In this document: positions 46,379-49,223 of the stretch, piece after piece
Numbering within the stretch: the first letter of the stretch is position 1
How the letters are laid out: every line of letters starts with the position of its first letter
Assembly (NCBI RefSeq): GCF_900116205.1
Contig: NZ_FOZS01000001.1
Span: forward strand, 1,302,001 to 1,366,000
DNA length: 64,000 nucleotides
Source of the DNA: Halostagnicola kamekurae
Lineage (GTDB): Archaea > Halobacteriota > Halobacteria > Halobacteriales > Natrialbaceae
Reading direction: 5' to 3'
Made by a program: the position numbers and the translations under genes
Notes under the pieces: generated by a model
What the model saw: the letters and a program-made list of their open reading frames with translations, nothing else
Told to the model about the DNA's origin: nothing
Database searches by the model: none

Positions 46379-47827
46379 TTAGTTTCCGTTCGATCCCTCT
46401 CCGCCTTCGACCCCCATCGCGTCGAACAGCGTCCGTTTGACCGCCTCTTCGGTCAACTCGAGGAACGTGTCTCTGGTTTCGGCCGAAATTTCGATGCCGG
46501 TAAAGATGCCCAGCGGGATTTCCGCGCTGGCCTGCGTCGAGTGGCCCGCCGTCTCGCCGATTTCGCCGTAGGCGTCGTCGAGGATCTTGCCGATGTTGAT
46601 CCGGATGTCTTTCGACCGGGCGGACAGGAAAATCGTCTCCTCGGCGATGCCGAAGACGGCGGTGGTCGTGACGCCCTCGAGGTTGAGCAGGTGGCTGGCG
46701 GCCTGCGTGAGCGCCTCGCGGTCCCGGACGATCCCGGCGTTCGAGACGAGGTGACTCCCCTGAACGTCCCGGTTCGCGATCGCCTCCGCGAGCACGTCGA
46801 GCGTCTCGGGTGACATCGACGGCGACTCGACCTGTTCTAACGTGTCGTGGTCTGCAAACGGATAGAGGTACGCGGCGGCGGTGAGGTCCGCGGGGGTGGT
46901 GTCGCGTTTGAAATCGAGCGTTTCGGCCCGGATACCGTACAGCAACGCGGTCGCGACCTCCTCGGAGACGTTGACGTCGAACTCCTGGATGTACTTCGTC
47001 ATGATCGTCGACGTCGAGGACATGTTCGGTCGGATGTCGACGAATTCGGGCTCGTACTCCGCCTCTGGCTCGTGGTGGTCGATCACGATATCGACGTCGA
47101 GGTCGATTTCGGTCGAGGTCGAGTGATCGACCAGTGCGACCGTATCGTGGCCCGAGAGATCCTCGAGTTCGTCCCACTGCACCAGATCGATCCCGAGGAG
47201 GTTCACGAACGCCCTGTTTTCCTGGTGGCCCATATCGCCGAGATAGACGATATCCGACTCGACCCCAAGGTGGGACGCGATCGCTTGCAACGCTGCAGCG
47301 CTCGCGATCGAGTCCGGGTCCGGACTCTCCTGTGTGACGATCGCCAGTCGCTCGGTCGTCTCCTCTAACAGTTGGGCGAGTTTCCCCGCGTTGTACTCGA
47401 GTTCCCCCGACTCGAGGGCTCGAAGCGCCGAGTCCGCGATGACCGCCGAGGGGTTGATGACGATGTCGGCACCGAGCTCCGAGAGTTCGTCGCCGGAAAC
47501 GGGGTCGCTCGCTCGAGCGACGACGAACTGAGTGCTATCGGAGTTTCGAATGTGCTCGACGGCTCGCTTGTTCGCCTCGACGTTCGAGGCGAGGATCAAG
47601 ACGACATCGCGTTCGGCGACGAGTTCCGCGGCCTCGGGCTCGCGGATATCTGCCGTTCGTGCATCGAGGTCCTGATCTCGGAGCGACTCGACGCGGCTCT
47701 CGTCGCGGTCGATGATGAGGACGTCCTTGCCTTGCTCGACGAGTTCCTCCGCGACGGCGTAGCCGACGCTCCCACAGCCGAGAATCGCGTAGTCAGAAAT
47801 CGACGAGATCGTGACCCCCATGCTCAT
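46379..47827 (-). CDS. RCK_N (TrkA-N)/DHH-DHHA1 phosphoesterase
   Basis: A 482-residue fusion. The N-terminal ~125 residues are an NAD-binding TrkA-N/RCK domain (ILGCGSVGYAVAEELVEQG). A DHH phosphoesterase follows with SPDPDSIASAAAL (about 165-177), LVDHSTSTEID and the DHH motif in VIDHHEPEAE, and then a DHHA1 domain (GIAEETIFLSARSKDIRINIG). DHH enzymes of this type degrade cyclic dinucleotides or short RNAs; a c-di-AMP or nanoRNA phosphodiesterase role is inferred. A second ATG at 47821 is possible. Confidence 0.85.
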   Translation of the reverse strand: MSMGVTISSISDYAILGCGSVGYAVAEELVEQGKDVLIIDRDESRVESLRDQDLDARTADIREPEAAELVAERDVVLILASNVEANKRAVEHIRNSDSTQFVVARASDPVSGDELSELGADIVINPSAVIADSALRALESGELEYNAGKLAQLLEETTERLAIVTQESPDPDSIASAAALQAIASHLGVESDIVYLGDMGHQENRAFVNLLGIDLVQWDELEDLSGHDTVALVDHSTSTEIDLDVDIVIDHHEPEAEYEPEFVDIRPNMSSTSTIMTKYIQEFDVNVSEEVATALLYGIRAETLDFKRDTTPADLTAAAYLYPFADHDTLEQVESPSMSPETLDVLAEAIANRDVQGSHLVSNAGIVRDREALTQAASHLLNLEGVTTTAVFGIAEETIFLSARSKDIRINIGKILDDAYGEIGETAGHSTQASAEIPLGIFTGIEISAETRDTFLELTEEAVKRTLFDAMGVEGGEGSNGN

Positions 47828-48005: not shown

Positions 48006-48079
48006 GGGCCGGTAGCTCAGTTAGGCAGAGCGTCTGACTCTTAATCAGACGGTCGCGTGTTCAAATCGCGCCCGGCCCG
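48006..48079 (+). tRNA. tRNA-Lys (anticodon CTT)
   Basis: A 74-base cloverleaf. The acceptor stem GGGCCGG (48006-48012) pairs with CCGGCCC (48072-48078), followed by discriminator G48079; CCA is not encoded. The anticodon arm CTGACTCTTAATCAG gives loop ACTCTTAAT with anticodon CTT. The T arm is GCGTG-TTCAAAT-CGCGC. No intron. The AT-rich TATTTCA stretch about 25-30 bases upstream is the probable promoter. Confidence 0.95.
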
Positions 48080-48209
48080 CTTCTGCTCCGAGCAATTACG
48101 CGAGGAGCGAAGCGGCTATCGGGATTTGAACGCAGAGAGAGCGCAGTCTCGCGAACGGAGTGAGCGAGGAAGCGATCGACCGTGTGTTCAAATCGCGCCC
48201 GGCCCGCTT
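48057..48209. repeat. Direct repeat of the tRNA-Lys 3' end
   Basis: The 26-base sequence GTGTTCAAATCGCGCCCGGC plus CCGCTT occurs exactly at 48057-48082 (inside and just after tRNA-Lys) and again at 48184-48209, 127 bases downstream. Similarity continues weakly past both copies. It is either the footprint of an element that integrated at the tRNA 3' end (att sites) or a decayed tandem duplication. Confidence 0.7.
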
Positions 48210-48315
48210 TTGCGAGGAACGATTCGTGACGAGCAGAGCGGCGAAGAACTCGAGAGTCATCGGTTTTCCAGAGTGGCGGACCACCCGCAACCACGTTCCA
48301 ATCGCCAAATTTCAG

Positions 48316-48543
48316 CTACACCTGCTCGCATGGCCGCCAGTACACTTTCCCGCTTGCGATTTGCTTCGACTCGAGATCACCCATAAAAGTCAAATCTTCG
48401 AGTTTGTTCCGAGCCGTATTCCGGTGACAACTCAGCAAATCCGAAATTTCGGGAGCACCAAACGGTTCACACCGGTCGTCGACATCGAGAAAGATTTGGA
48501 GAACATCGTCGGTCGTAATTCTCGGTTTTCGTCCGCCAGACAT
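48316..48543 (-). CDS. Small winged-helix DNA-binding protein
   Basis: A 75-residue protein with a helix-turn-helix: ILQIFLDVDDRCEPFGAPEISDLLSCHRNTARNKLEDL, then a wing ending KVYWRPCEQV. It lies 2 bases after the HAD gene on the same strand, so the two form an operon. Targets unknown. Confidence 0.65.
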   Translation of the reverse strand: MSGGRKPRITTDDVLQIFLDVDDRCEPFGAPEISDLLSCHRNTARNKLEDLTFMGDLESKQIASGKVYWRPCEQV

Positions 48544-48545
48544 CG

Positions 48546-49223
48546 TTATCGCCCCGTATCTGGATGATCAACGATGTTCGGCAACTCGAGCAAATCCGAA
48601 ACCTCGTATGTCGGTGTGACAGAGAGGTCGAGAGAACGACAGTGGTCGCGGCGGACGAAAACCGAGTCCATTCCCGCCCGATGTGCCGCAATCACGTCGC
48701 TTTCGCTGTCACCGACGTAGAGGGCCGAGTCGGCCTCGAGATCGGCCAGCGCGCTGTCGAGATAATGCGTATTCGGCTTTTTCAGCCGCAGACTTTCGAG
48801 CGTCTTTTCGCGGCCGTAGTAGGTCTCGAACAGCGAGTGGAGGTCGAAGTGGTCAAGGACGAACTCGATCGTGCTGTGGTGGTTGTTGCTGACGACGCCA
48901 CACCGCTGTCGGAGGTCAGAAATCGCAGTAACGTCGTCGTATCGGGTTCTGGATCTGTCCCGAAATTTCTCGAACTGCGACTTTTCGTCGAGTCGTTCCC
49001 GAACCTCCCAGAACCGTTCTGGTTCGAGGTCGTATATCGAACAGATGTCGTACAGATCCTCGAGCGAGACACCCGCGACGATCGCGTCGACGTGATGGGG
49101 TTCGACAGTGGTTGTACCGACCGACCGGAACGCATCGCGAGTCGCACCGGCCTGAGTCTCGCGTGCAGGCGGTTCAACGAGGACGCCATCGCTGTCGAAG
49201 AGGACCGTATCGTACGTTGTCAC
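48546..49223 (-). CDS. HAD-superfamily phosphatase
   Basis: A 225-residue haloacid-dehalogenase-type hydrolase. Motif I is LFDSDGVL with nucleophile Asp10, motif II VVSNN, and motif IV YVGDSESDVIAAHRAGMDSVFVRRD. Beta-phosphoglucomutase/phosphatase-like cap. Substrate unknown. GTG start at 49223. Followed by the small HTH gene. Confidence 0.85.
   Translation of the reverse strand: MTTYDTVLFDSDGVLVEPPARETQAGATRDAFRSVGTTTVEPHHVDAIVAGVSLEDLYDICSIYDLEPERFWEVRERLDEKSQFEKFRDRSRTRYDDVTAISDLRQRCGVVSNNHHSTIEFVLDHFDLHSLFETYYGREKTLESLRLKKPNTHYLDSALADLEADSALYVGDSESDVIAAHRAGMDSVFVRRDHCRSLDLSVTPTYEVSDLLELPNIVDHPDTGR

Follow-up and report, generated by a model that had tools for sequence, protein, structure and literature searches.

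The only tRNA gene in the window, by which we mean the whole 64,000-nt stretch analyzed (positions 1302001 to 1366000 of contig C1 in a 4.1-Mb genome, G000), encodes tRNA-Lys(CTT), and the locus raises the question of how the 3' end of this gene came to be repeated a short distance downstream. The initial annotation described a 26-base exact duplication lying 127 bases downstream and ending at position 48209, and both the spacing and the end point were correct (48057-48082 is identical to 48184-48209). What it missed was an inverted copy of the T-loop between the two direct copies, where an inverted-repeat match spans 48123-48131, and two hairpins. The features of the locus are as follows.

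48006 to 48079 (ARAGORN end, 48080), plus strand: tRNA-Lys(CTT), the anchor of the array (ARAGORN; Rfam RF00005, 67.9 bits)
48059 to 48079, plus strand: original core, from T-loop position G53 to discriminator N73 of tRNA-Lys (boundaries from the identity profile of the copied stretch)
48080 to 48112, plus strand: H1 hairpin, with a stem, a tandem G.A, 2 bp and the 6-nt loop AATTAC (folds; included in H1 alignment A1, which shows covariation)
48123 to 48134, minus strand: inverted T-loop forming the 5' arm of H2, GATTTGAACGCA (inverted-repeat match; 12-bp helix with 48183-48194 in the fold)
48123 to 48194, plus strand: H2 hairpin, running from the inverted to the direct T-loop (folds)
48153 to 48163, plus strand: terminal mini-hairpin GA-AC-GGA-GT-GA, a GNA triloop with tandem G.A (pattern and sequence reading)
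48186 to 48206, plus strand: direct core copy, 21/21 identical to the tRNA (sequence comparison; shuffle test)
48207 to 48234, plus strand: second H1, decayed, 3' of the core copy (read from the sequence; other arrays are laid out alike)

The 21-nt core occurs twice in the window, compared with 0.00 occurrences in 100 shuffles when up to 3 mismatches were allowed. The 106-nt gap between the two cores (48080-48185) is occupied by hairpins and contains no integrase-bearing element. The similarity that had been noticed past the repeat corresponds to the decayed second H1, and other arrays also tend to finish with an H1. A cmscan search of the window found no Rfam family other than tRNA, and nothing else credible was found in five arrays. 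There is no integrase gene beside the presumptive attachment site. The neighboring genes are a TrkA_N plus DHH/DHHA1 fusion protein on the opposite strand to the left (46379-47827) and, to the right, a HAD hydrolase and a 75-amino-acid open reading frame without a Pfam match.

One reading offered initially was a decayed tandem duplication. We found that the unit is not private to this tRNA but a conserved, structured repeat standing behind many different tRNAs. A search of the same genome found tRNA-Ser(TGA) with a layout like that of tRNA-Lys(CTT), and with a cutoff of 15 of 22 matches there were 26 units, each 102 to 162 nt long, behind 17 of the 42 tRNAs, with tandem units at Ile, Asp, Met, Leu, Ser and Val tRNAs. 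The arrays are laid out as tRNA - H1 - [H2 - core - H1]n, such that the orientation of the T-loop alternates: the T-loop of the tRNA, H1, an inverted T-loop, H2, a T-loop with the tRNA 3' end, and H1 again. The core is an exact or near-exact copy of 21 nt of the host tRNA, from G53 in the T-loop to the discriminator N73. H2 begins at the inverted T-loop; tandem G.A pairs occur in both hairpins, and GNA triloop tips are common in H2. Palindromes nested in H1 or H2, for example CACCGCGTAGCGCGTG, were seen in the same genome in the arrays of Ser(GGA) (L024), Ser(CGA) (L034) and Asp(GTC) (L027), and give the impression that a hairpin was inserted within another hairpin's loop.

The arrays extend across the class Halobacteria. 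Under a stricter rule, which required a copy of the tRNA tail with at least 17 of 21 matches 55 to 230 nt downstream of the tRNA, about a third of the tRNA genes in each haloarchaeon surveyed had copies: 13 of 42 in the source genome, 11 of 38 in a congener (G002) and 11 of 32 in a member of another family (G023; 47 tRNA matches, of which 30 loci were retrieved). No such copy was found at 29 tRNAs of a control genome from the same phylum and another class (G398; 30 loci from 53 matches, with 6 genes near locus ends omitted and one complete downstream tRNA uncounted). Of 292 Halobacteria genomes, 257 contain the pattern GATTTGAA-N30-60-GTTCAAATC, covering 73 of 77 genera, and a control pattern had no match; elsewhere in the phylum, 5 of 203 genomes contain it. 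One of the five outside matches (G404) resembles part of a tRNA gene; the other four were in G309, G342, G445 and G456. A related pattern searched across 84,980 species yielded 62 stretches, whose titles were in every case haloarchaeal or archaeal without further specification. Haloferax sulfurifontis and Haloarcula argentinensis are examples of species with arrays, at Ala(CGC) and Lys(CTT).

The units are anchored to tRNA genes. The 70 loci fetched by pattern alone contained 83 unit places, of which 81 had a same-strand tRNA less than 700 nt upstream, and the first units started 32 to 83 nt past the tRNA end. At one of the two unanchored places (L077), a tail resembling that of tRNA-Val precedes the unit, with an integrase gene immediately upstream of the tail; at the other (L085), the unit lies inside a 401-amino-acid open reading frame. 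In named genomes, 58 of 64 unit places were anchored, and 3 of the 6 misses were at locus edges. At three loci in these genomes (L418, L423 and L440), unit-like palindromes were seen with no same-strand tRNA detected upstream. The H1 motif was present in 23 of 31 genomes of the family, and by eye it stood directly after a tRNA 3' end or tail in 28 of 30 loci, the exceptions being L290, where it is decayed, and L293.

The copied core is specific to its host. For the 78 of 81 units that were usable (the tRNAs of the other 3 yielded no T-loop motif), the 12 nt past the T-loop matched the host tRNA at 11.54 of 12 positions, compared with 5.79 for shuffled hosts and a maximum of 6.64 in 2,000 shuffles. 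In the named genomes, the core was identical to the host tRNA at all 21 positions in 37 of 58 cases. Restricting a boundary profile to copies at least 90% identical, over rows taken largely from loci chosen for having units (as were those for the fold and G.A counts and for the tRNA-stem, Ser(TGA) and first-versus-last-copy comparisons below), we found identity of 0.93 to 1.0 across G53 to N73, 0.12 to 0.48 to the left (0.73 at position -1) and 0.39 to 0.60 to the right. Beyond the T-loop, the inverted arm was only weakly host specific (4.2 versus 3.5 of 12), although its first outer pair was Watson-Crick in 66 of 81 units; the notion of a mirror image of the entire tRNA end was therefore dropped. 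Retro-copying from the tRNA 3' end was, by reasoning, likewise unsupported, since the copy extends past A58 and lacks CCA.

To examine the hairpins, we aligned 51 distinct H1 sequences, each the first after its tRNA and selected by GA-RC-N6-GY-GA, a selection that fixes the GA columns and the loop-adjacent C-G pair and leaves the outer seven pairs free. In this alignment, 86.9% of cells were paired, compared with 70.6% after shuffling, and covariation was 0.523 compared with 0.228; controls in which the alignment was slid were far lower. Of 106 units, 54 had hairpins of the form GA-RC-NNN-GY-GA, compared with an expectation of 0.7 after shuffling, and 51 of 63 loops were GNA. On the tRNA-sense strand, there were 374 tandem GA/GA loops, compared with 68 after shuffling (5.5-fold), whereas the complement, TC/TC, occurred 27 times compared with 25. 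Because the G.A loop is symmetric, a K-turn was dropped as an explanation of H1. The sequence CGARCGNAGYGAG occurs 54 times in the source genome, compared with 18 times for a backwards control; by position, about a third of the occurrences lie in tRNA arrays, and thus the mini-hairpin may exist independently elsewhere.

The content of the arrays differs between close relatives. At Lys(CTT), one congener has one similar unit (G002), another has two of other subtypes (G001), a third has one that is shorter (G004) and a fourth has none (G003); the same two copies with the same spacing in all relatives, the pattern that had been named as the mark of an old duplication, is thus absent. Comparison of the source genome with G002 revealed a clean 104-bp, one-unit difference at Leu(TAG), with its junctions in the inverted T-loop, a difference of two units at Leu(TAA) and, at Ile, an H1 that had been swapped while H2 was retained. 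Across four congeners, the H1 and H2 tokens found at Ser(TGA), clustered at a loose score threshold, combined in many different pairings. Orientation was nearly constant (55 units forward and 2 inverted, by the 5'-arm motif). Of 148 interiors, 75 had a close neighbor in another genome, and 41 of those 75 had it at a different isoacceptor, which would be consistent with movement of units between tRNAs.

These differences might also arise through neutral turnover of tandem repeats, in which an old array, ancestral to the halobacteria, stayed similar to the tRNA through gene conversion and unequal crossing-over, and template switching at this heavily transcribed locus generated its palindromes. 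An almost exact tandem duplication of a whole unit in Halovivax asiaticus (L396) implies that ordinary tandem duplication occurs too, and junctions fall at short repeats; at Leu(TAG), the junction coincides with an 8-nt repeat within the inverted T-loop and could therefore reflect a slippage deletion. Moreover, in the 50 arrays that have at least two copies, the one closer in sequence to the tRNA was the first in 23 and the last in 7, with 20 ties (P = 0.005), as conversion would produce; no enzyme was found. The same polarity also counts in favor of mobile cassettes. However, interiors are common to different isoacceptors and genomes, and the inverted T-loop offers only about 8 to 12 nt of shared sequence. 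Correction of palindromes should also remove the tandem G.A pairs, yet these are enriched, and on one strand only. We therefore regard neutral turnover as a serious alternative that is nonetheless somewhat unlikely.

A different possibility is that the unit is transcribed as a 3' trailer of the tRNA and folds as RNA, serving in termination or 3' processing or as a small RNA comparable to rtT RNA. Units do lie downstream of the tRNA in the sense direction, many cores have a T-rich stretch 3' of them, and for 141 of 191 units the RNA fold of the sense strand was the stronger one (in the window unit, z was -4.10 for the sense strand and -1.94 for the other). When DNA parameters were used and G.T pairs disallowed, the advantage of the sense strand was modest: it was better in 62 of 96 cases (every second unit). 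What speaks against an RNA is the nature of the mismatches. G.T and A.C mismatches were about equally frequent in H1 (20:16 without the outermost pair and 23:20 with it) and at the GNA closing pair (3:3), whereas host tRNA stems gave 46:0 (17:0 in acceptor stems and 29:0 in T stems), a control that is flattered because ARAGORN selects well-paired tRNAs. Mismatch counts over all possible helices were dominated by noise and revealed no enrichment of G.U or A.C. In addition, array content varies between congeners, and tRNA is the sole credible Rfam family. A functional trailer RNA accordingly seems decidedly unlikely. Taken together, the G.A mismatches on the sense strand and the lack of a G.T preference over A.C suggest, from the sequences, that the sense strand would act as DNA rather than as RNA; mini-hairpins with GNA loops, such as GCGAAGC, are described as extraordinarily stable as DNA in the part of the literature consulted (PMC4686876).

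Genuine integrase elements do use these tRNAs, and two elements of about 2 kb were found in the source genome.

G000, C1, 875500 to 879500 (L317): element at Val(CAC), with a truncated integrase-like open reading frame that has only SAM-like domains
G000, C2, 661300 to 665300 (L318): element at Ala(GGC), with an integrase-like open reading frame whose catalytic domain is just below the Pfam cutoff and whose SAM-like domain is above it

Each of these lies between its tRNA and an H1-H2 unit, and relatives of the L318 integrase occur in 56 of 61 genomes of the family. Among 30 relative loci scanned for tails, L324 and L336 have tRNA tails of 13 to 14 nt with H1-H2 units directly after them. L318 bears a weak inverted half T-loop. 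None of L317, L318, L077, L324 and L336 carries H1 or H2 arms; their arms are of other kinds, and these elements insert in front of the arrays, so that the H1 and H2 arms are not supplied by them, and derivation of the hairpins from their att arms was rejected. Nor did we find, among the integrase elements examined, an autonomous element with H1 or H2 at its ends. A viral or plasmid source was also rejected, as no unit was present in the viral contigs read, in phages or in plasmids. A T-loop pattern found at least 120 stretches in viral contigs, of which the 80 read look like chance matches, mostly in low-GC contigs; a stricter pattern found none there; 35 stretches matched the H1 motif, none of them after a tRNA end by eye; and blastn against phages and plasmids returned nothing relevant.

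That the downstream copy is the attR of a tRNA-integrating element with a deleted interior, as first proposed, is thus very improbable: the 21/21 direct repeat of the tRNA 3' end and its sharp T-loop-to-tRNA-end boundaries are indeed integration-like and resemble the att sites described in the consulted portion of PMC8371274, but units alike in length and structure stand behind many tRNAs class-wide, and the integrase elements have other arms, two of them with 13- to 14-nt copies, and precede intact arrays. With no element between the copies of the window, a conserved unit elsewhere and integrase elements on the tRNA side of the arrays, neither the footprint nor the private duplication is an adequate account.

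The reading that we tentatively favor, at somewhat less than an even chance, is that the window holds a one-unit array of tRNA-anchored hairpin cassettes, small nonautonomous mobile DNAs that would recombine at T-loops with single-stranded sense DNA as the substrate. As with tRNA-integrating elements, recombination at T-loop sequences would leave the 3' end of the tRNA restored. The substrate might be single-stranded DNA folded from the tRNA-sense strand, for instance when that strand is displaced during transcription of the tRNA gene, and the first candidate for the enzyme would be a tyrosine recombinase of the kind that integrates at tRNAs and abounds in haloarchaea. A more specific version, which we consider unlikely, is a gene-less, integron-like system in which cassettes would be inserted beside tRNAs newest first, by a recombinase acting on folded single-stranded sense DNA, with crossover in T-loops of either orientation and each insertion renewing the tRNA 3' end. 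If so, the arrays would be a record of insertions and would perhaps protect against viruses that integrate at tRNAs by offering spare or decoy 3' ends.

We found no account of such hairpin arrays in the open-licence literature on haloarchaeal tRNA-linked repeats, fragments, palindromes, tyrT and GNA mini-hairpins. In Escherichia coli, the tyrT repeats, from which rtT RNA arises, are tandem units after one tRNA locus, each with the tRNA 3' end; like them, the hairpin arrays are tandem units downstream of a tRNA with its 3' end, but the bacterial unit is longer, the hairpin arrays stand at many tRNAs and include an inverted T-loop, and in the window and five arrays nothing credible other than tRNA matched a described RNA family. 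Integron attC cassettes are also small arrayed units with polarity, and their folded single strand may have a counterpart here, hinted at indirectly by the sense-strand G.A loops and by covariation without a G.U preference, whereas the units described here come without IntI and without gene cassettes, and their copies are tRNA specific.

The closest printed relatives that we found are the SMR-A repeats and the partial tRNAs of Haloferax. The SMR-A short mobile repeats of Haloquadratum walsbyi, as far as the consulted part of their description goes (PMC3119063), are about 110 bp long, gene-less and palindrome-associated, with terminal inverted repeats, many copies and a mobilization called "enigmatic." The array units, at 102 to 162 nt with inverted T-loops, no gene and many copies, are similar, but SMR-A repeats target PATEs and IS605-type elements and leave no target duplication, whereas array units stand behind tRNAs and each carry a 21-nt copy of the host tRNA, a possible target duplication. 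In Haloferax gibbonsii LR2-5, partial tRNAs adjoin full tRNAs; the portion of that report consulted (PMC7921747) gives no repeat unit, hairpins, array or distribution for them, unlike what we describe for the hairpin arrays. Archaeal elements with tRNA-targeting tyrosine recombinases duplicate the 3' part of the tRNA and restore the gene, according to the sections consulted (PMC8371274), but they are kilobases long and carry an integrase, whereas the array units are about 100 to 160 bp and gene-less. In M. kandleri, the palindrome CGTTA-N9-TAACG, reported as species specific, lies downstream of about half of the tRNA genes; in the available part of its description (PMC5217627), it is a single short motif with no tRNA copy, unlike the hairpin arrays. 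The consulted part of a paper on tRNA fragments (PMC9897764) contains no description of the arrays.

If the units are mobile, they would constitute a class-wide family of elements for which the tRNA T-loop is the recombination site and by which the tRNA end is renewed, with a bearing on how tRNA genes survive under constant attack by integrases. The arrays are relevant, too, to how partial tRNAs and spurious small open reading frames are annotated. In the window, open frames of 109 and 135 amino acids (48057-48386 and 48160-48567) traverse the unit and could be annotated as spurious proteins; they contain the stretches FKSRPARFC or VQIAPGPL, which are encoded by the two cores.
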